DNA from: Flavobacteriales bacterium
Lineage (GTDB): Bacteria > Bacteroidota > Bacteroidia > Flavobacteriales > UBA1820
DNA: 36,083 nt
Assembly: GCA_017537565.1 (NCBI GenBank)
Contig: JAFYKQ010000129.1
Span: 1-36,083, forward strand
Direction of reading: 5' to 3'
This document shows positions 3,888-26,835 of this stretch, one piece after another. Under the pieces are notes generated by a model. The model saw only the letters and a list, made by a program, of their open reading frames with translations, was not told the origin of the DNA and made no database searches. Position numbers and translations under genes: made by a program. How positions within the stretch are numbered: the first letter of the stretch is position 1; each line of letters begins with the position of its first letter.

Positions 3888-6800
3888 TTATTTTTCTTCG
3901 GTGCGTAGGAATGGATAAATCACCAGGAATGATTCATATATGGCATTCAAGTATTGGGATTTTTCCTCTTCCAGCGTAGGAGAGAAATTCTCTACTGTGC
4001 CATATAGATGATTATACAGACTCAAACAATTATACGCATCTTCAAATACTCCCATCTTTTTATCTCTGGGGAATGATATGTAGAACAGTAGGTCTTTCTC
4101 CATCTGGTCAAATGCATATCGTGCCAGGCTGTCGGCTTTTTCATTCTGCCCACTCTGATAAACGGCCTTGATGGTGTTTACCGTATAGTAATCCACCTCA
4201 AAACGGTTTATAGGCATCTTTTCTACCGATGTGTTTATTATCTCGCGGGCACGAGTGGTATCCCCGTCCATAAGTAGTGAGCGTGTAGTGCGTATCATAG
4301 CACTACGCATATGAGTAGCCGAACGTTTGTCAAATTCTGTAAGATATGTGCTGGGGTGCTCTATGCCGCCATACTCCCAATTGTTCTTTATGATTTCATA
4401 GCTACGAGCTGCATCATCGGCTTCCATGTTGTTAAGACGGAATGGCACCAGTTTATATGTCATACCTTCCTGTATAACATACTCGTTAAGACAGAACATA
4501 TTCTCACGCGCGTCTGATGAGGCTCCCAATGCAAAGTGTATAGGACGGTCCCATTCATAGTTTGATAAAAAGTCCAGGAATGCCAGTGTCTTTTTATCTA
4601 TCGATATGTTTTTGCCTCGCTGACGTCCTACCGTTATATGCAGGCTGTCCTCCATATATGGAGCTTGCAGGGAATCAACTATGCCATACTTGACAGCGTT
4701 TTCTTTGTTGACAGGTATAGAGATGTGTGTGGTAGGAATCATATAGTCATATTCGCCAAACATATCTTTGTATAGAAGTGCGGGGTGTTCGGCTGCTATG
4801 AGGTTTATGAATGTCTTTATGTCCAGTTCTTTGTCTGCTATGCCAGAATTTTCGTTGAGGTAAACAGTCTCATTCTTGCGGCCGGTATATGCGCGCTGTT
4901 TAATGGTAAGTGGTAGAGGGTCGCTATCGTAATACTGTGAGCGGAACTGTTTTATATACCAGTCACACATAAGCAGCGAAGTGTTTACCACGCGTACATC
5001 GGTACGGTAGCCTTCCATCTCTTGCATATACCACAATGGGAATGTGTCATTATCTCCATATGTTACCATTATACCGTTCTTACCCACACAAGACAGGTAG
5101 TTGAGTCCCGTGGCGCGTCCCGTGCTGCGGGTGCTGCGGTCGTGGTCGTCCCAGTTCTGTGCGGCCATAAGGGTCGGCACAGCTACAAATGCTATGATAG
5201 ATGTAAGGGCTGCTATCACAGGACGTGAAACCTTTACTCTCTCACTTATCCAGGAGTATAGAGCCAGTACGCCAAGACCTATCCATATGCCAAATGTCCA
5301 GAACGATACCACCAGTGCATAGTCGCGTTCGCGGGGTTCATAAGGAGGGTTGTTTGTATAAATTGTTATGCCTACACCTGTGATAAGGAAGAATAACAGT
5401 ACGCAATATGCGTCCTTTTGATGACGTAAGAAATGGAAGAACATTCCCGCCAGTCCCAGTAGTAGAGGCAACATATAGTAAACGTTGTGTGCAGCATTAC
5501 CTCCCAGATGGTCTGATGTAGGTTCCTGTGGTCCCAGACGCAATTCGTCTAGCGGACGTATGCCCGTAATCCAGTTGCCCTTGTGAGGTTCACCACGACC
5601 TTGGTAGTCGTTCTGTCTTCCTGCAAAGTTCCATAGGAAATACCTCATATTCATATGTCCCAATTGGTATGTAAGGAAGAATCTAAGGTTATCGCCAAAA
5701 GTAGGTATTTCCCCCTCTTTAAGACCTGTAAGAGTCTTGTAGTTCTCACGATATTGAGACAAATCGTTGGCTATACGAGGGAAGATATTCATATATTTGC
5801 TCTGGTAGCGTATAGACAGTGAGTGGTCTATAACATCATAACGTCCTGTTTCATAGTTTGGTTCATAGATGGCTTTACCTATGATATATGGGTCTGAATA
5901 GTCTGGCAGGGCGTTATATGAAGGCCCGTAAAGCAGGGCTTGTTTGCCGTATTGTTCACGGGATAGATAGTAGCTTAGCCCTTCGGCTGTTGATGGGTTG
6001 TTTTCGTTTATAGGGGTATTGGCGTTGGCGCGTATAGGAATCATAAGGTATGACGTAAACCCTATGACTATCATCATGATGGCAAGCATAACGGTATTGG
6101 CTGCTATCCAGCCTTTGCGGGCGGTAATCCATAGAGCAAATGCTATGGCTACAGCCAAAAATACAGCCCAGAATATAGTTCCCGAGTGAAATGGCATGCC
6201 CAGCGTGTTTACAAAGAACACGTCCATCGCACCAAATGAATAGATAAGGAATGGGAATATAGCACCAAATGTAAGCACCAGCACAGCACAAGCCACAGCA
6301 TTGGCAGCCAAGAAACGTTTTACAGTGACCTGTTTGTCCTCACATTCATAATAATACATCATAGCCACCACAGGTATACCCAGCAGTCCCATAAAGTGAA
6401 CTCCCGGTGCAAGTCCTGTCATAAGAGCAACAAGAATGAGCCATTTGTTATTGCGAGGGCGGCCAAATCCGTTTATCCATCTCACACCAAAGTACAACAA
6501 CAGTACGGTAAACAGCGTAGCTAGCGAATATACTTCACTCTCGGTGGCATTAAACCAGAATGTATCTGAAAACAGTATGGCACTACTACCCACTATACCG
6601 CTACCTATTGTAGCTATGGCTTCGGGGGTGGATAGCTCCTCCCAATTTCTGCCCAGTATCCTGCGTGCAAAAAACGTTATAATCCAGAACAGCAACATAA
6701 TGGCCACAGCCGATGACAGGCAGGCAAAAACGTTCATCATAAATGCCACGTTTTCTGCCTCCACGTCAAACATATTACTTATCACTGCACCCATCATTTG

Positions 6801-6974
6801 ATACAGCGGAGCTCCGGCAGGGTGTCCCACTTCCAGTTTCACAGCTGTAGCAGTGTATTCAGGGCAGTCCCATAGTGGTACGGTAGGTTCGGTAGTGGAG
6901 ATGTAAACAGTCGAAGCGACAGCAAACATCACCCAACCTATTATGGTATTTAAGTGTTTGAATTTTGTGTTCAT
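3888..6974 (-). CDS. DUF2723 / GT117-family membrane glycosyltransferase
   Basis: This 1028-residue protein belongs to the DUF2723 family (TMEM260-like, GT-C fold). Family members have an N-terminal multi-pass membrane half and are thought to move sugars from a lipid donor onto proteins outside the cytoplasm. The signature is visible: WDCPEY at residues 35-40 holds the candidate catalytic Asp/Glu pair in the first external loop, followed by VGHPAGAPLY at 49-58. About a dozen hydrophobic segments fill roughly residues 10-600; the final ~400 residues are soluble, probably periplasmic, and helical near the end. Many relatives have Gly-Glu-Phe where this has Pro-Glu-Tyr. It leads a two-gene operon with the NodB deacetylase. 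The acceptor, possibly secreted glycoproteins, is inference. Confidence 0.85.
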   Translation of the reverse strand: MNTKFKHLNTIIGWVMFAVASTVYISTTEPTVPLWDCPEYTATAVKLEVGHPAGAPLYQMMGAVISNMFDVEAENVAFMMNVFACLSSAVAIMLLFWIITFFARRILGRNWEELSTPEAIATIGSGIVGSSAILFSDTFWFNATESEVYSLATLFTVLLLYFGVRWINGFGRPRNNKWLILVALMTGLAPGVHFMGLLGIPVVAMMYYYECEDKQVTVKRFLAANAVACAVLVLTFGAIFPFLIYSFGAMDVFFVNTLGMPFHSGTIFWAVFLAVAIAFALWITARKGWIAANTVMLAIMMIVIGFTSYLMIPIRANANTPINENNPSTAEGLSYYLSREQYGKQALLYGPSYNALPDYSDPYIIGKAIYEPNYETGRYDVIDHSLSIRYQSKYMNIFPRIANDLSQYRENYKTLTGLKEGEIPTFGDNLRFFLTYQLGHMNMRYFLWNFAGRQNDYQGRGEPHKGNWITGIRPLDELRLGPQEPTSDHLGGNAAHNVYYMLPLLLGLAGMFFHFLRHQKDAYCVLLFFLITGVGITIYTNNPPYEPRERDYALVVSFWTFGIWIGLGVLALYSWISERVKVSRPVIAALTSIIAFVAVPTLMAAQNWDDHDRSTRSTGRATGLNYLSCVGKNGIMVTYGDNDTFPLWYMQEMEGYRTDVRVVNTSLLMCDWYIKQFRSQYYDSDPLPLTIKQRAYTGRKNETVYLNENSGIADKELDIKTFINLIAAEHPALLYKDMFGEYDYMIPTTHISIPVNKENAVKYGIVDSLQAPYMEDSLHITVGRQRGKNISIDKKTLAFLDFLSNYEWDRPIHFALGASSDARENMFCLNEYVIQEGMTYKLVPFRLNNMEADDAARSYEIIKNNWEYGGIEHPSTYLTEFDKRSATHMRSAMIRTTRSLLMDGDTTRAREIINTSVEKMPINRFEVDYYTVNTIKAVYQSGQNEKADSLARYAFDQMEKDLLFYISFPRDKKMGVFEDAYNCLSLYNHLYGTVENFSPTLEEEKSQYLNAIYESFLVIYPFLRTEEK

Positions 6975-7107: not shown

Positions 7108-7265
7108 ACTTTTTTTGAGTCATATAAAAACTTTTTTTAAGTGAAAATATGTTTTTTGTTTTAATTATTATTAACTTTGCTCCAAACAAGTGGAGGTAAA
7201 GTCAAGAATTTAAGTTATTTGAGTTAAAAGTTTTAGATATATCCAAATATCTGATTAACTTAAAT
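7108..7265 (+). promoter_or_regulatory. Five copies of a TTTRAGTNA motif, candidate operator array
   Basis: The 348-bp gap between the divergent GT117 and winged-helix genes is AT-rich and holds no gene. Within it the 9-mer TTTRAGTNA occurs at 7114-7122, 7136-7144, 7209-7217 and 7218-7226 (the last two directly abutting), and inverted at 7256-7264. The first two lie in 13-bp direct repeats (ACTTTTTTTGAGT at 7108, ACTTTTTTTAAGT at 7130) that start 22 bp apart, about two helical turns. The inverted copy makes a 10-bp stem (7208-7217 with 7256-7265) around a smaller hairpin at 7233-7254, so the leader RNA may also fold. OmpR-family domains typically bind tandem direct repeats, so the neighbouring winged helix is the obvious candidate ligand (inference). 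Confidence 0.5.
7172..7179 (+). promoter_or_regulatory. Candidate -7 box of the winged-helix gene
   Basis: TAACTTTG fits TAnnTTTG and would start a leader of about 135 nt before the ATG at 7323. The -33 region has only a TTG 13 bp upstream, which is too close. One copy of the 9-bp motif ends a few bases upstream of the expected -33 site, so activated transcription is possible. Confidence 0.4.
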
Positions 7266-7322
7266 GTCGCAATCCTTCCAAGGGTTAGAAAAATTAATAA
7301 CAACAAATAAAAAGGAAACATT

Positions 7323-7643
7323 ATGAACATGCAAACAGAATTCAAAATCGGAAACTATGTTTTTGATTTTCGCAAACGTACGTTGGTAATAGGAGATGAG
7401 TCTCGTAAACTCACCACCCGTGAAGCCGAACTACTCCTTATATTCTGTGAAAATATGGGAGAACTGGTAGAACGCTCATTTATCCTTAAAAAACTATGGG
7501 GTTATGACGATTTCTTCAACGCACGCTCTATGGACGTGTTTATCACAAAGATACGTAAATATCTGGGCGGTGACGTGAATGTACAGTTGGCCAATGTACG
7601 CGGTAAAGGATATCGTTTGCTTACAGGAGGACAGCAGGCTTAG
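7323..7643 (+). CDS. Stand-alone OmpR/PhoB-type winged-helix DNA-binding protein
   Basis: The 106 residues consist only of the effector domain of an OmpR-family response regulator: LTTREAELLLIFCENMGE at the first helices, ILKKLWGYDDFFNARSMDVFI as the recognition-helix segment, and a C-terminal NVRGKGYRL hairpin wing. The closest pattern I know is the C-terminal domain of the Bacteroidota regulator RprY. No receiver domain precedes it: the upstream 130 bp contain no in-frame coding sequence and the ATG follows a purine-rich AAAAAGGAAAC stretch. The protein is therefore not controlled by phosphorylation in the usual way. Codon use here mixes ATC and ATA for Ile, unlike several low-expression neighbours that use ATA only. 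It is monocistronic, with a strong terminator and a possible operator array upstream. Confidence 0.85.
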   Translation: MNMQTEFKIGNYVFDFRKRTLVIGDESRKLTTREAELLLIFCENMGELVERSFILKKLWGYDDFFNARSMDVFITKIRKYLGGDVNVQLANVRGKGYRLLTGGQQA

Positions 7644-20706: not shown

Positions 20707-21609
20707 TTAATACACCCACATATTCATCTCAAAGGCACGTATCATCTCTTTTATACGCTCCCCTTCGCGTAATTGAAACAGGGCATTGGCACGTAGGTAG
20801 TCCTCTATGGCACGGTCGGCATACATATTTTCTTCTTTATAAATGATAGAGGAAAACCTACGGGCAGTGAGAATATCGTCATAGGATATATTCTGTGCAG
20901 CATTGGAGGGGTTAAAGGCAGGATAACTGTCCAGTTCCTTGCGAGCATCGGGATACCATATCCAGAACAGTGCCACCATATCATCATCGCCTGCTTTTAC
21001 TCCGCTTGCGTCGCGGCTGTAAGGAGCTATTCCCAGCAGTCTATAACGCAATTCACTATGCCGTTTATCAAAATACCACATGCCTTTTATGCGGTACTGT
21101 GTAACCATATCTGGGGTAACGCTGTATGTTATGGTATCGGCAGCGGTAAGGGTTTCTCCATCTGCCAATCTATCCATAGCATACTGATCTATGCCCTTCA
21201 TTTCTAGTCTGGACGATACTTCGTTTGTAGAGAGAGGATTTTTAAAATACTCGTCATCATAGACCTGTGTTATACGTCCTTCCATTATAGCATCTTTAAG
21301 CACGGCAAACATACTCTTACGCACAGGTGCCATCTTTTCATCACTGGGGAAGTAAAGTGGTAGGTTTACCTTTTGGTCCAGGTCTATCGTTTCATAGACT
21401 ATGACGCTCCACATCACATCACGAGGTTCTGTGTAAGGGTATTTGACGGGGACATTACTCGTGTCGGTGATAGAGGAACTGTAAGACTCGTGATATTCTG
21501 TGGGTGTTGTAGCGTTGAGAATAGAAACGCTACGGGACTGGGCATGTATGTGTGGTGATAGGCATAGAGCTATACACCAAGTGGTGAAAAATAATTCTTT
21601 CATAGCCAT
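20707..21609 (-). CDS. porN: Type IX secretion ring protein PorN/GldN
   Basis: This 300-residue exported protein is the PorN/GldN subunit of the periplasmic ring that, with PorK, sits under the outer membrane in type IX secretion. A signal peptide ends near HIHAQ. The family core is present: PYTEPRDVMWSVIVYETID, then NLPLYFP, ITQVYDDEYF, and the conserved MVALFWIWYPDARKEL and DILTARRFSSIIYKEEN segments. It is last in the operon, 3 bp after the porM stop. P. gingivalis PorN is slightly longer, chiefly at the N-terminus. ATGs at 21609 and 21603 both fit; the first overlaps the short gap to porM. Confidence 0.9.
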   Translation of the reverse strand: MAMKELFFTTWCIALCLSPHIHAQSRSVSILNATTPTEYHESYSSSITDTSNVPVKYPYTEPRDVMWSVIVYETIDLDQKVNLPLYFPSDEKMAPVRKSMFAVLKDAIMEGRITQVYDDEYFKNPLSTNEVSSRLEMKGIDQYAMDRLADGETLTAADTITYSVTPDMVTQYRIKGMWYFDKRHSELRYRLLGIAPYSRDASGVKAGDDDMVALFWIWYPDARKELDSYPAFNPSNAAQNISYDDILTARRFSSIIYKEENMYADRAIEDYLRANALFQLREGERIKEMIRAFEMNMWVY

Positions 21610-21612
21610 CTA

Positions 21613-23175
21613 TCACATAAGGGTTATCACTATGGGAGAGGGTTCTTTCTGTGGGATTTTACTGGGCTTATCAAACGAATACTTGATGTCTCGTATGACC
21701 ACCTCACTACCGGCAGGAGCATTTGTTATGGCACTGGCAGCCTGTGGGGAAAATCTATCGCCCGATACTTGATATGATGGTCGTCCAGGGATTTTGACAG
21801 TAAAGCCTGTAACGGTGAGCGGTATATCAAATTCAAAATCGGGATAACTTACCTCTACACGATTCTGCACCAATGTGTTTTTGTTTATACGCAGGTTGTT
21901 CTGTCCACGTATCTGTCCCACGGGAGCAGGGACGTTCTTTATGCGGAATTCCTGTGAGGGAAATGTCTGCATCGTTCCATCGGCCATACGTGCAGACGGG
22001 GTATAACGTGCAGTGCGACCTTGTACAGATGAAGGGTCTATGATGTATTTCCCAGCACCCAATGAGCGTACCCCCGGCCCCGATAGCGATACCGCCCCAG
22101 CCGATACACCTGGGATAGATATACTCACAGGATTGTCTATGCCCCTATACAGCACGTTCATACGGGTGGGAGAGATAACCGCCATAGGAGCAGTAACGTC
22201 ATACTTCCCCTCAAATGGGAAATCTTTTGTCTCGCCGTCATCTGTGCGTATGCGTATGTATCCACTCCAATTTTTTTCTCCTGTTGATGAGGTAGGGATA
22301 GAGATAATCCCTCGCCCGTCCTCGACTGGCATCTTCTGTCCATCATTTAGGAAGACTTCTGGAGACTGGGTGTTGTCATATGCTGCCAGTATTACTTGGG
22401 CCTTGAATGGACTGCCGGCCATTATGGTGGTTGCCTGTGGAATGACCATAGCTGTGAGAGTATTGGGTACCAGTAGTGCGTCTTGTGTGGAGGAGGAAAG
22501 CATCTGTGTGAGGAGTTCTTCCTGTGTGGAGCGTATGCGGGATTGGTATTGTGATATGAATGCCAATGCCGCCGCCAATGGATAAGCCGAAAAACGTTCC
22601 TTAATCCACTCTATCGTTACATCGTCTCGTTTTACTGGTGAGGTCGAAAAATCTACGTTTATCATCGATAGCAGATGTTCATCACTGGTCATAGATGATA
22701 TAAGACGACGGTATGAATCCATCATACGTGTAAATTCTGCTCCCTTACCTTTGCTTAAATCACCGCCTGGGAAAAAGAACTCTCCTGCTATGGCGGTAGA
22801 TGATAGTTCATCTATGTCGTCTATCTGTGAGGGAATGACATCGCTACCTTCTGGTATGACGCGAGCCATACGCAACATTTCTACTTTATAGCCTTGTAGG
22901 GTGTTAAAAAAACTATCGGCAGCATCACATAGAGCGGTAGCATTCTCTAGTATGCTACCGTATTTTACAGGATTGTTACGGGCTTTGGTAGAGATGTCGG
23001 CATATAAAGACCGGTTTTTATTCTCTATCTGTGATGTGGTGGAAGACATAGTACGTTCAAAACTCCAAAAGGCTCCCAGGACATCTATCGATACATTGAG
23101 TGCAAGCATAGCCATAAGCACCAGATACATCATATTTATCATCTTCTGTCTGGGAGAATTTGCAGAAAGAGCCAT
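21613..23175 (-). CDS. porM: Type IX secretion motor subunit PorM/GldM
   Basis: This 520-residue protein is the periplasmic shaft of the T9SS motor. It has one N-terminal membrane segment (MINMMYLVLMAMLALNVS, about residues 12-33), then a helical region and a series of beta-rich domains running to the C-terminus, which contacts the PorK/N ring. Length is close to P. gingivalis PorM. The segments NNLRINKNTLVQ and VTGFTVKIPGRPSYQVSGDRF are typical of the last domains of the family. It works with PorL in proton-driven rotation. A 53-bp gap with a 9-bp direct repeat (AATAGTTTA, 23179 and 23207) separates it from porL. Confidence 0.93.
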   Translation of the reverse strand: MALSANSPRQKMINMMYLVLMAMLALNVSIDVLGAFWSFERTMSSTTSQIENKNRSLYADISTKARNNPVKYGSILENATALCDAADSFFNTLQGYKVEMLRMARVIPEGSDVIPSQIDDIDELSSTAIAGEFFFPGGDLSKGKGAEFTRMMDSYRRLISSMTSDEHLLSMINVDFSTSPVKRDDVTIEWIKERFSAYPLAAALAFISQYQSRIRSTQEELLTQMLSSSTQDALLVPNTLTAMVIPQATTIMAGSPFKAQVILAAYDNTQSPEVFLNDGQKMPVEDGRGIISIPTSSTGEKNWSGYIRIRTDDGETKDFPFEGKYDVTAPMAVISPTRMNVLYRGIDNPVSISIPGVSAGAVSLSGPGVRSLGAGKYIIDPSSVQGRTARYTPSARMADGTMQTFPSQEFRIKNVPAPVGQIRGQNNLRINKNTLVQNRVEVSYPDFEFDIPLTVTGFTVKIPGRPSYQVSGDRFSPQAASAITNAPAGSEVVIRDIKYSFDKPSKIPQKEPSPIVITLM

Positions 23176-23228
23176 ATCAATAGTTTAGGTTAAGAGTTAA
23201 GTGTAAAATAGTTTAAGTGGAACCATCA

Positions 23229-23918
23229 TTACTTGTGAGGCTGGTTCATGGCGGTGAGAACATTGCCGTATATGCTGCCCAATGTTTCTAGGTTTTGGGC
23301 AAGACGTTCTATGCTACCACTTACACGGGTAGAGCTTTCGGCTACGCGTTGCATAGTAGAGCTGATGGTACGTATATGTCCTTCCTGGTGTGACATTTGC
23401 TCTATGTGAGAACTGTAAATACGGTTGAGTTGTTTCAGGTTTTCTGTTGCCGATGACATTTGTGAGCAGTAGGCGGCATTGGCATCTTTTACCGTAGATA
23501 GAGATGATATAGAACGAGCCTCCTGTGACAGTCGATTCAGTCCCTCGGCCAAGCGTTCCATCATAGGTACGTCTATGCCTGCACGGGACATCATCTGGTC
23601 CAGTTTGCTGGATAGGGATACATCGGTGGGTGTCTCGCGGGTATGTGGTGTGGTAACAGGAGTATCACCTTTCTCCCCATTTACAAGGGCAGGAAAGACT
23701 TTCTCCCAGTGATAATCATAGCCTATGGGGTCTATGGCTGTAATGGCAAACAATAAGGCTTCAGACAGCATACCTATCCCTATTATAAGGTCGCCGTATG
23801 GTAGGTGCAAGATTTTGAACATAGCGCCTATGATTACTACCGAAGCCCCTAGGTTATAGGCCACATTCACAAACTTCTTCCAAGTTCTCGATGCTAGAAA
23901 TGATGTATTCTCTTTCAT
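23229..23918 (-). CDS. porL: Type IX secretion motor subunit PorL/GldL
   Basis: This 229-residue inner-membrane protein carries the two transmembrane helices of the T9SS proton motor: VAYNLGASVVIIGAMFKILHLP (about 19-40) and IIGIGMLSEALLFAITAIDP (about 45-64). Family-critical charged residues are kept, including Lys35 and Glu53 in the membrane part. The C-terminal cytoplasmic tail is predicted coiled coil and is short: P. gingivalis PorL is about 309 residues, so this one lacks some of the tail. It starts 12 bp after porK. The truncation is at the variable end, so the motor should still work. Confidence 0.92.
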   Translation of the reverse strand: MKENTSFLASRTWKKFVNVAYNLGASVVIIGAMFKILHLPYGDLIIGIGMLSEALLFAITAIDPIGYDYHWEKVFPALVNGEKGDTPVTTPHTRETPTDVSLSSKLDQMMSRAGIDVPMMERLAEGLNRLSQEARSISSLSTVKDANAAYCSQMSSATENLKQLNRIYSSHIEQMSHQEGHIRTISSTMQRVAESSTRVSGSIERLAQNLETLGSIYGNVLTAMNQPHK

Positions 23919-23930
23919 AGTATGTCGTTT

Positions 23931-25310
23931 TTAAGGTTTGCGGTTTTTGCCTACTCCTATTTCTGGACAGTCCTGTACGGTACGGAATCCTATGTAACTA
24001 CGGGCAGAATCCCTGTGTTCATAGTCGCGAGTACCTATTTGTAGAAAGAGAGCCACATCTTTCCAAGAGCCTCCCTTTATGACCTTGTGATGGTTGTTTT
24101 CCAGGGTGTAAGTAGGGTTGAGTGATGATACAAATGATGTGCTGGACGGTTCGTATGATGATAAAGTCCATTCGGCGACGTTACCAGCCATACAGTATAG
24201 TCCATAAGCATTGGGGGTAAATGAACGTACTGGAGAGGTCATATATACTCCGTCTGCCATATAGTTACCTCTCATAGGTTTGAAATTGGCTAGGAAACAA
24301 CCGCGAGAATCCATCGTGGAAGGCCCTCCCCAAGGGTATGGAGATTGGTTGAGTCCACCACGGGCAGCATATTCCCATTCGGCCTCGGTAGGTAGGCGGA
24401 AGGGCGGTACGGGGGGCTCGCCTCGTGAGCGTTGGTAGGCATTCTTTTTCTGTGTCCGCCAATGACAGAAAGCCATAGCCTGTTGCCACGTTATGCCCAC
24501 TACAGGATAGTCGTCATATGCAGGAGATTCAAAATATGTCTGCATAGAGGGTAGATTATAGGAATATATGAAATCCCGTACCCATACGGTGGTGTCGGGA
24601 TATACGGCTATGTTATGTGTCTGCATAAAGTCTTCTATTCTGCCATTGCTAGAATGTGCAGCACGGTTTTCGTCTATGGACACATAGGTGTATATGAGTT
24701 GGCGGGTGTCAATCCTGTCTTCCAGTTCTGCCGAAAGACGGGACTCTATGGGTAGTAGCATACCGTCCCTCACCTCTACGCAATAGATATCCTGCTGTTC
24801 ACGTCCCCAGTTAAGAGGTCGGCTCCAGTCTAGTCTTCGTCCTTTATTGGGGGCATTGGGGTTAAGAGAGCCGTATGTACGCATCATATATTCGTGATAA
24901 GGACTTTCGTCTTCACTGGGAGATATGTAGCGGTAGTAGCCTATACCTTCGTCACTATCGGCTCCTAGTTCGGCGGCTTTTTGTGCCAGACGTGCACGGA
25001 AGATGGAATCACGTACCCAATAGACAAATTCGCGGTATTGGTTATTGGTGATTTCGGCCTGGTCCATATAGAACGAAGCAACTGTCACGGTTTTAAGTTG
25101 CCCGTCCAGAGCCGATGAAGGGTCATATGAAGCATTGCCCATAATGTATGAACCAGCGTCAATTTTTACCATACCCAGTGGTCTGTCTTGCTGCCAGCCC
25201 TTGCCACGAGAACGCACTCCAGTAAGTTCTCCCTTGTCTGGGCTATGTGCCGTAAAACAAGAACACATTACAAGTGAGGAAAAGCATAATGTGATTATAG
25301 TGAGTTTCAT
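23931..25310 (-). CDS. porK: Type IX secretion ring lipoprotein PorK/GldK
   Basis: This 459-residue lipoprotein forms the outer-membrane-associated ring with PorN. The signal peptide ends in VMCSC; Cys18 with Ser before it is the likelier lipidation site, though Cys16 is also possible. The bulk is a formylglycine-generating-enzyme/sulfatase-modifying fold (KIDAGSYIMGNASYD, ITNNQYREFVYWVRD, PVVGITWQQAMAFCHWRT, RLPTEAEWEYAARGG, YCMAGNVAEWTLSSYEP, VIKGGSWKD), used structurally in PorK. It begins 26 bp after porP. The order and spacing match the P. gingivalis operon. Confidence 0.93.
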   Translation of the reverse strand: MKLTIITLCFSSLVMCSCFTAHSPDKGELTGVRSRGKGWQQDRPLGMVKIDAGSYIMGNASYDPSSALDGQLKTVTVASFYMDQAEITNNQYREFVYWVRDSIFRARLAQKAAELGADSDEGIGYYRYISPSEDESPYHEYMMRTYGSLNPNAPNKGRRLDWSRPLNWGREQQDIYCVEVRDGMLLPIESRLSAELEDRIDTRQLIYTYVSIDENRAAHSSNGRIEDFMQTHNIAVYPDTTVWVRDFIYSYNLPSMQTYFESPAYDDYPVVGITWQQAMAFCHWRTQKKNAYQRSRGEPPVPPFRLPTEAEWEYAARGGLNQSPYPWGGPSTMDSRGCFLANFKPMRGNYMADGVYMTSPVRSFTPNAYGLYCMAGNVAEWTLSSYEPSSTSFVSSLNPTYTLENNHHKVIKGGSWKDVALFLQIGTRDYEHRDSARSYIGFRTVQDCPEIGVGKNRKP

Positions 25311-25336
25311 CTGTGATGTGATTTTTTAAGTGTGCG

Positions 25337-26272
25337 TTACAGGAATCGTACGTTATGAACGGTGTGAGTTGTGGGTAGCGTATCGTTCTTACGTTTCCTG
25401 TGTGATGGACGGTATATGAGAAGAATCTCGTGTGTGCCTCCTGTGGAAGAAGCTATCCCATATATCCTGCTCTGGTAGCAGTAGTTTAGTTGTAAATCTT
25501 TCCATATGTATCCCATATTTATCCCAAACGAATGTTCATTGCCATAGGAAAGACCTGCTATCAAGTGGTTCTTGATAACGGTGGAAAGATTGGCAGCATA
25601 GGAAAAACTGCTCATATCACTACCCAGCAATCCCGATGGGCATAGTTTTACATCTCGTCCAATCTCCCAACTGTATCCTCCCATAAGAAAAATGTGGTTC
25701 TTCTGTTCTAATGATAGTACATCTGTTATAGAATGAGAGAATTCTATACTGTGGATAGATGATAGGCCTATGTAGTAACGGCTACTCCATAGAGCTATAC
25801 CGGCACCTACTACTGGTGTGGTTGATGATGTCCTATCCAGTGGTATGTAAGGGTCATTGGGAGATGAGCTTATCCATTTGTTATCTACCCCTATCCTGCT
25901 GATGCCTCCCTTTATGCCCGCCGAAAGATATACCTTCCCCAGTGGCAGGCTGTAAGCATATCCTATGTTGATGTCTAGATGTGAAAAATTGCCTATGCGG
26001 TCATAGCTTATGGCAGTACTTCCTGCCCCGCGGGAAGAAAAAAGAGGCATACGTCCTATGATGGCAGCCGTCTGTGGGGCACCGTCTATACTGCTCCACA
26101 TGTTGCGGTATGTGGCGATGATTTCGCTGCGAGTATCAAGTGGAGCAAATGCCACGTTGTAATAGACCTTGTTATAATACCACTGGGAGAAATATGGGAT
26201 TTGCTGTGCTGTAACACGACATGCACATAGAAACGATAACGATAATGTAAAAAATAAAGCCAGATGTCTCAC
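25337..26272 (-). CDS. porP: Type IX secretion PorP/SprF-family outer-membrane protein
   Basis: This 311-residue protein is a PorP/SprF-type beta-barrel, which acts in T9SS assembly or in the display of secreted cargo. It has a signal peptide (ending CRVTAQ), QQIPYFSQWYYNKVYYNVAFAP directly after it, and a long series of amphipathic strands. The GTG at 26272 is the start: an in-frame stop lies five codons upstream and the signal peptide begins there. It leads the porPKLMN operon. No perfect TAnnTTTG box is seen in the 147 bp up to the tmRNA gene, so its promoter is unclear. Confidence 0.88.
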   Translation of the reverse strand: MRHLALFFTLSLSFLCACRVTAQQIPYFSQWYYNKVYYNVAFAPLDTRSEIIATYRNMWSSIDGAPQTAAIIGRMPLFSSRGAGSTAISYDRIGNFSHLDINIGYAYSLPLGKVYLSAGIKGGISRIGVDNKWISSSPNDPYIPLDRTSSTTPVVGAGIALWSSRYYIGLSSIHSIEFSHSITDVLSLEQKNHIFLMGGYSWEIGRDVKLCPSGLLGSDMSSFSYAANLSTVIKNHLIAGLSYGNEHSFGINMGYIWKDLQLNYCYQSRIYGIASSTGGTHEILLIYRPSHRKRKNDTLPTTHTVHNVRFL

Positions 26273-26419: not shown

Positions 26420-26822
26420 GGGGTCGGCATTGGCTTTGACAGCGAGACCGGTCGATATGTAAGCACGTAGAGCAGTGGGGGAGTGGCTCTTAAATCTCTT
26501 CCTCCGAAGTATAAACGGCGAAAATAACTACGCTCTTGCTGCCTAATCTCTCACAGAGAGACTAGAGCCTACGTCTGTTCAAGGAACAGAGGCGGGACAT
26601 CGCTCCGAAGCCACGTTTCACGGCGTTGGGACTAGCGGTGCCGAAAAGTGAAAACAAGCCTCCTGCCGACTGAGGGCAGAGGACTGAAATCTCAAATGCA
26701 GGGTAAGGCTGCCCTTATGGTGTTTGCGACATTAGGTAGCCCTGACAATCTCCCGCAAAATAAACGTGTAGAAAGCATAAAGGTCGCTCGTTTGGACCCG
26801 GGTTCGACTCCCGGCGGCTCCA
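26420..26822 (+). ncRNA. ssrA: Transfer-messenger RNA
   Basis: This one-piece tmRNA of about 403 nt rescues stalled ribosomes. The 5' end GGGGTCG pairs with CGGCTCC near the 3' end to make the acceptor stem (seven pairs, two of them G-U). The T arm reads GACCCGGGTTCGACTCCCGG. The tag frame starts with GGC at 26517 and encodes GENNYALAA followed by TAA at 26544-26546. The tag is identical to the P. gingivalis tag as I recall it, which supports placement near Porphyromonas. After the discriminator A at 26822 the genome reads CAG, so the CCA end is not fully encoded. The gene is divergent from the porP operon. Confidence 0.96.
26517..26546 (+). other. tmRNA tag reading frame (GENNYALAA)
   Basis: Codons GGC GAA AAT AAC TAC GCT CTT, then GCT GCC TAA, give the degradation tag. 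The terminal ALAA is the usual recognition end for ClpXP-type proteases. Confidence 0.93.
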
Positions 26823-26835
26823 CAGGAATGACAAT

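Follow-up and report, generated by a model that had tools for sequence, protein, structure and literature searches.

The sites of ArcA of Escherichia coli are direct repeats with GTTA cores, and RprY of Porphyromonas gingivalis is a full-length response regulator. The latter is described as an orphan that outlived its kinase, RprX (PMC6032018). Within the Flavobacteriales, PhoP of Riemerella anatipestifer binds its own promoter; its core motif in DAP-seq is TTTAACA, and the motif was compared to that of ArcA (PMC9603813).

The window analyzed here, i.e., a stretch of 36,083 nucleotides, comes from a genome of the Candidatus Merdimorpha group of the Flavobacteriales (G000; 1.7 Mb in 136 contigs). 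Four Candidatus Merdimorpha species were compared: that of the window, its nearest relative (G002), and two more distant ones (G001 and G003). The features discussed below are listed in Table 1.

A receiver-less winged-helix gene

The earlier note described an orphan OmpR-type winged-helix gene, and this was confirmed by a match to the full domain, by the lack of a receiver, and by a structural model. PF00486 was matched with 62.7 bits (gathering score 26.2) over profile positions 4-77 of 77. The AlphaFold2 model (mean pLDDT 87.9) has strands at residues 6-9, 12-15, 20-23 and 26-29, helices at 32-43, 51-59 and 67-81, and further strands at 87-92 and 96-101, i.e., the β1-4, α1-3 and C-terminal hairpin fold of the family. 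In the PDB it matched the PhoB-DNA structure 1gxp with a TM score of 0.72, and the top matches were DNA-binding domains of the OmpR/PhoB family (PhoB, SaeR, YycF). An N-terminal receiver with a phosphorylatable Asp is absent from all four Merdimorpha species, in which the open frame spans no more than 110-111 codons. The closest NCBIfam model was RprY (NF051850), matched over the DNA-binding part only, and the score of 126 bits did not reach the orthology cut-off of 370.

Residues 28-76 (49 in a row) are identical across all four species, and the protein of G002 is 98% identical to that of the window. Because the fold is complete, this run of residues is invariant, and one neighbor is constant, the comparison argues for a working regulator and not a gene fragment, for which short receiver-less regulators are easily mistaken. 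Codons 1-7 (7323-7343) have the same DNA in all four species, while synonymous sites vary freely elsewhere in the gene; a constraint on the translation start or on the RNA is possible.

The constant neighbor is the divergent GT117-type gene, whose product shares 72%-73% identity with its counterparts in G001 and G003; the downstream neighbor varies. The earlier note raised control of the divergent operon as a possibility, but comparison of the intergenic region across species revealed no conserved motif copy near the GT117 promoter. Elsewhere in the window, a run of genes at 20707-26272 resembles, from translations only, a type IX secretion core, with GldK-L-M-N order and a PorP/SprF-like gene, and a tmRNA gene with the tag GENNYALAA lies at 26420-26825.

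Table 1. Coordinates of the features in the window
Feature	Position	Strand	Remarks
Divergent TMEM260/GT117-type (PF11028) gene	3888..6974	-	Neighbor of the lone-domain gene in 4/4 species
Upstream direct repeats with copies 7114 and 7136	7108..7144	+	Lost in G002; without AGTTA core; probably not functional
Predicted Bacteroidota -7 box TAACTTTG, distal promoter	7172..7179	+	Within TTAATTATTATTAACTTTGC, identical in three species; predicted from the TANNTTTG consensus
Adjacent pair TTTAAGTTA-TTTGAGTTA, candidate operator	7209..7226	+	AGTTA half-sites 9 bp apart; conserved, genome-unique
Possible RNA stem-loop pairing copy 7218 with copy 7256	7217..7265	+	19/19 pairs in G000, 18/19 in G002, 15/19 in G001
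Most conserved leader block CAAATATCTGATTAACTTAAA, with inverted copy 7256-7264	7244..7264	+	Third half-site or degenerate proximal -7 box (TAACTTAA)
Small leader hairpin, CCU....AGG core	7272..7290	+	Similar in three species; single-sequence folding
Receiver-less OmpR/PhoB-type winged-helix gene, 106 aa	7323..7643	+	PF00486, 3.3e-17; AlphaFold2 model; frame in 4/4 species

Relatives of the lone domain and their promoter arrays

We searched for homologues in 396 genomes of the order, and all other matches listed were full-length regulators. The best of the matches listed (about 50%-61% identity) are the second genes of Flavobacteriaceae kinase-regulator operons. In a tree, the lone domain clusters with the regulators of these operons, with moderate support (81/77), apart from the canonical RprY of its own genome. 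The latter, a separate full-length RprY-type regulator adjoining its kinase in G000, has a DNA-binding domain 44%-47% identical to the lone domain. With the operon-type kinase as query, the best match in three of the four Merdimorpha genomes was an RprX-type kinase (34%-36%), accompanied by weaker ones; in G001 the same search returned weaker kinases only, and an RprY-type regulator was likewise not found there. No clear counterpart of the operon kinase is left in the four Merdimorpha genomes searched. The simplest history would be one of loss, in which the receiver and partner kinase of a two-component regulator disappeared in the Merdimorpha lineage, and the winged-helix domain that was left over survived as a free-standing, non-phosphorylatable DNA-binding protein.

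All 16 Flavobacteriaceae kinase-regulator loci (L041-L046, L048, L051 and L056-L063; an example is L042:989-1014) carry, in their own control regions, three GTTAA(C) repeats at an exact 10-bp period. In the 15 loci with a clear -7 box for the kinase gene, the last repeat lies 32-34 nt before that box. Of three loci that come from a different family of the order, two have a pair of GTTAA repeats at 10 bp. Such pairs, 10 bp apart and 32-33 nt ahead of a TANNTTTG box, were seen at L053:1074-1088 and at L055:2394 (minus strand). The Flavobacteriaceae arrays are often common to a divergent gene that resembles a GLPGLI family member.

An array of this kind in the gene's own promoter points strongly to an autoregulatory operator, and the GTTAA(C) array is probably that of an unnamed two-component system. 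From the 16 own-promoter arrays and the two-repeat loci of the other family, it follows that the half-site read by this domain group is probably AGTTA(A). The recognition helix of the lone domain is nearly the same as in its array-bearing relatives. The comparison thus yields a concrete half-site, AGTTA/GTTAAC, for a Flavobacteriaceae two-component group. In the open-access literature we found no description of this two-component group, of a GTTAAC array with GLPGLI, or of the lone-domain protein.

Within Merdimorpha, no GTTAAC pair of the ancestral type (GTTAACNNNNGTTAAC) was found in any genome at up to one mismatch, and the lone-domain gene has no module of GTTAA(C) repeats at 10 bp placed 32-34 nt above TANNTTTG. 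Elsewhere, G000 and G001 each have a single GTTAA module with a -7 box; the loci differ, and both modules were taken as chance. A GTTAA array was also not found in the RprXY-type promoter of G000 and G002.

Repeats in the control region

The five copies of TTTRAGTNA reported previously are present, at 7114, 7136, 7209 and 7218 on the plus strand and at 7256-7264 on the minus strand. It also proved accurate that the first two lie within near-identical direct repeats starting 22 bp apart (15-mers ACTTTTTTTGAGTCA at 7108 and ACTTTTTTTAAGTGA at 7130, identical at 13 of 15 positions), and that the copy at 7218 directly follows that at 7209. When the intergenic region (348 bp, 23% G+C) was shuffled 2000 times with dinucleotides preserved, TTTRAGTNA never occurred five times and at most twice, a figure that overstates the case because the pattern was picked after looking. 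When this choice was allowed for by scoring the best of all comparable 9-mer patterns, five copies were reached in 4 of 200 shuffles, i.e., about 2%. The single 9-mer shows no genome-wide excess (127 matches versus 121 for a reversed control), and a regulon defined by it was rejected on that ground. Pairs at 22-bp spacing, which the earlier note had singled out, occur elsewhere in the genome at control level only. An inverted repeat, TTTTAAGTTAAAC / GTTTAACTTAAAA, surrounds the start of a small lipoprotein-like gene at L036:1348-1420 (G000:C6) and contains two TTTAAGTTA words; it looks unrelated.

Judged by conservation, the five copies are not a single set, and leader copies separate from upstream ones. 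The intergenic DNA of G002 is 80% identical to that of the window, and the upstream copies are gone there, the second reading TTTAAGAAA. AGTTA is present in the leader copies but absent from the upstream ones, which read AGTCA and AGTGA. The copies at 7209, 7218 and 7256, by contrast, keep 27 of 27 bases in G002 (18 of 18 for the adjacent pair), whereas the leader as a whole differs at 21 of 137 columns (P = 0.0065). Columns 7244-7263 are invariant at 19 of 20 positions across three species, and the block CAAATATCTGATTAACTTAAA is unique at zero mismatches in G000, G001 and G002. G001 retains the inverted copy unchanged, its tandem plus-strand copies are degenerate, and a new copy adjoins the inverted one to give AGTTATTTAAGTTAA on the other strand of the same leader; G003 contains no TTTRAGTNA copy. 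Conservation upstream of orthologs, which the earlier note had proposed as a check, is thus partial: it extends to three copies in G002, to the inverted copy and its new neighbor in G001, and to nothing in G003. At up to one mismatch, the adjacent pair has a single match in each of the near-complete genomes G000, G001 and G002, always in this leader. The pattern AGTTANNNRAGTTAA likewise has exactly one match at zero mismatches in each, although it was written after seeing G001, whereas the adjacent-pair pattern was written before. On this evidence, the leader copies look like a genuine element and the upstream copies do not.

The distal start site would lie near 7186, downstream of the predicted -7 box. 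The earlier suggestion that iterated sites flank a start site was not supported, since the nearest relative has lost the upstream copies and these have no AGTTA core. A small upstream ORF at 7264-7326 (MSQSFQGLEKLITTNKKETL, with a stop overlapping the ATG) was rejected, as in G002 the start codon is missing and a stop comes early.

Compared with the GTTAA(C) arrays of the relatives, the leader pair is a degenerate version with a 9-bp period. Its AGTTA cores, 9 bp apart, fall outside the direct repeats at 10-11 bp of OmpR-family operators, and the upstream pair at 22 bp is unconserved. When a matrix derived from the relatives' operators was applied, the best intergenic pair was equaled in 345 (G000), 298 (G002), 14 (G001) and 89 (G003) of 1000 shuffles; the leader pair of the window therefore scored no better than shuffled DNA, and that of G001 did score better.

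These figures bear on whether the copies are an accident of composition, which we regard as rather unlikely. Short T-rich words recur in a region so poor in G+C, and their conservation would then reflect recent divergence and promoter constraint; the frequency among comparable patterns, the unconserved upstream copies, the lack of a genome-wide excess, and the matrix score at shuffle level all fit. Less easily explained by chance are the complete retention of the leader-copy bases in G002 and an adjacent pair that three genomes each have only once, in this same leader, in G001 on the other strand.

A role for the repeats in the RNA is a serious alternative, if unlikely as well. The copy at 7218 (or 7209) would pair with that at 7256, forming a long hairpin ahead of the ribosome-binding site by which translation or stability would be tuned, with the two tandem copies as alternative partners of one arm. 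The 10-bp stem proposed previously, between 7208-7217 and 7256-7265, is possible, but in the predicted fold the partner of the copy at 7256 is that at 7218, with 11 pairs, one of them G-U. The pairing in G000 and G002 (Table 1) favors such a structure, as do the identical codons 1-7 and the position of the tandem copies, which belong to the 5′ arm in G000 and G002 but to the 3′ arm in G001; a duplicated arm would give this arrangement. With one choice of ends, the leader was also more stable than shuffles in three species (z = -3.3, -4.2 and -2.1). However, z varied with the ends chosen (-1.18 for the full leader of G000, -1.57 for another cut), and the G003 leader was no more stable than its shuffles. 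No compensatory pair changes were seen among species, four of the 19 pairs are broken in G001 despite conservation of the 3′ arm sequence, and Rfam at gathering score matched nothing in the leader, the tmRNA being its only match in the window.

Least probable, and in our view distinctly so, is a relic of an ancestral activator-promoter module, in which AGTTA repeats precede a proximal -7 box (TAACTTAA at 7256), the inverted copy serves as a promoter element, and a second, proximal promoter is activated by the protein: the last GTTA (7223) does lie 33 nt from TAACTT at 7256 (32-34 in relatives), GTTA-N5-GTTAA-N{26,30}-TANNTT has a single match in G000 and a single match in G002, both in this leader, and G003 has a canonical TAACTTTG at -84, but in three species TAACTTAA is without the TTTG of the -7 consensus, a canonical and perfectly conserved -7 box is present upstream, and G001 has only a degenerate form of one of the two repeats.

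Autoregulation and comparison with known systems

The reading that we prefer, tentatively and at somewhat less than an even chance, is that the lone domain, as the relic of a two-component regulator, controls its own transcription through AGTTA half-sites in the leader, likely by repression. The protein would bind the half-sites at 7209-7226 and the inverted one at 7256-7264, downstream of the conserved, predicted promoter at 7172-7179, and thereby block initiation or elongation, giving negative autoregulation. With the sites placed some 25-80 nt downstream of the predicted start, repression seems likelier than activation. Autoregulation by the encoded domain, as put forward in the earlier note, draws its plausibility from the related full-length operons: in each of the 16 examined, the promoter itself contains a GTTAA(C) array. 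It would operate through the conserved, genome-unique leader repeats; the upstream copies, which are not conserved, drop out of the proposal.

We count against autoregulation through the leader the matrix score at shuffle level, the 9-bp spacing, the absence of GTTAACNNNNGTTAAC, the lack of any copy in G003, and the degenerate plus-strand copies of G001. The isolated DNA-binding domain of R. anatipestifer PhoP was insufficient to bind its promoter in vitro (PMC9603813), a precedent that speaks against binding by a lone domain, although it concerns a different regulator. We think it doubtful that, in a gut lineage, a two-component regulator was pared down to a bare DNA-binding domain and in addition exchanged an activating array of three repeats above its promoter for a repressing site of two repeats, spaced 9 bp, in its leader, with the gene's own operator as the genome's only one of this form.

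With RprY and related OmpR/PhoB-type regulators of Bacteroidota, the lone domain has in common the DNA-binding domain family and the RSMDV core of the recognition helix; unlike RprY-type regulators, it has neither receiver nor adjacent kinase, and a canonical RprY exists separately in its genome. Its closest relatives, by tree and identity, are the regulators of the Flavobacteriaceae GTTAAC-array operons, with which the AGTTA core is also common. These differ in being full length and in having three repeats at an exact 10-bp period, 32-34 nt above a -7 box. P. gingivalis RprY resembles the lone domain in the loss of its kinase, but the lone domain is not full length. ArcA of E. coli differs in repeat spacing and is a full-length global regulator. 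R. anatipestifer PhoP, too, is full length, and its isolated domain did not suffice for binding (PMC9603813). The kind of regulator is well known, and the receiver-less form with repeats in its leader is the variant.
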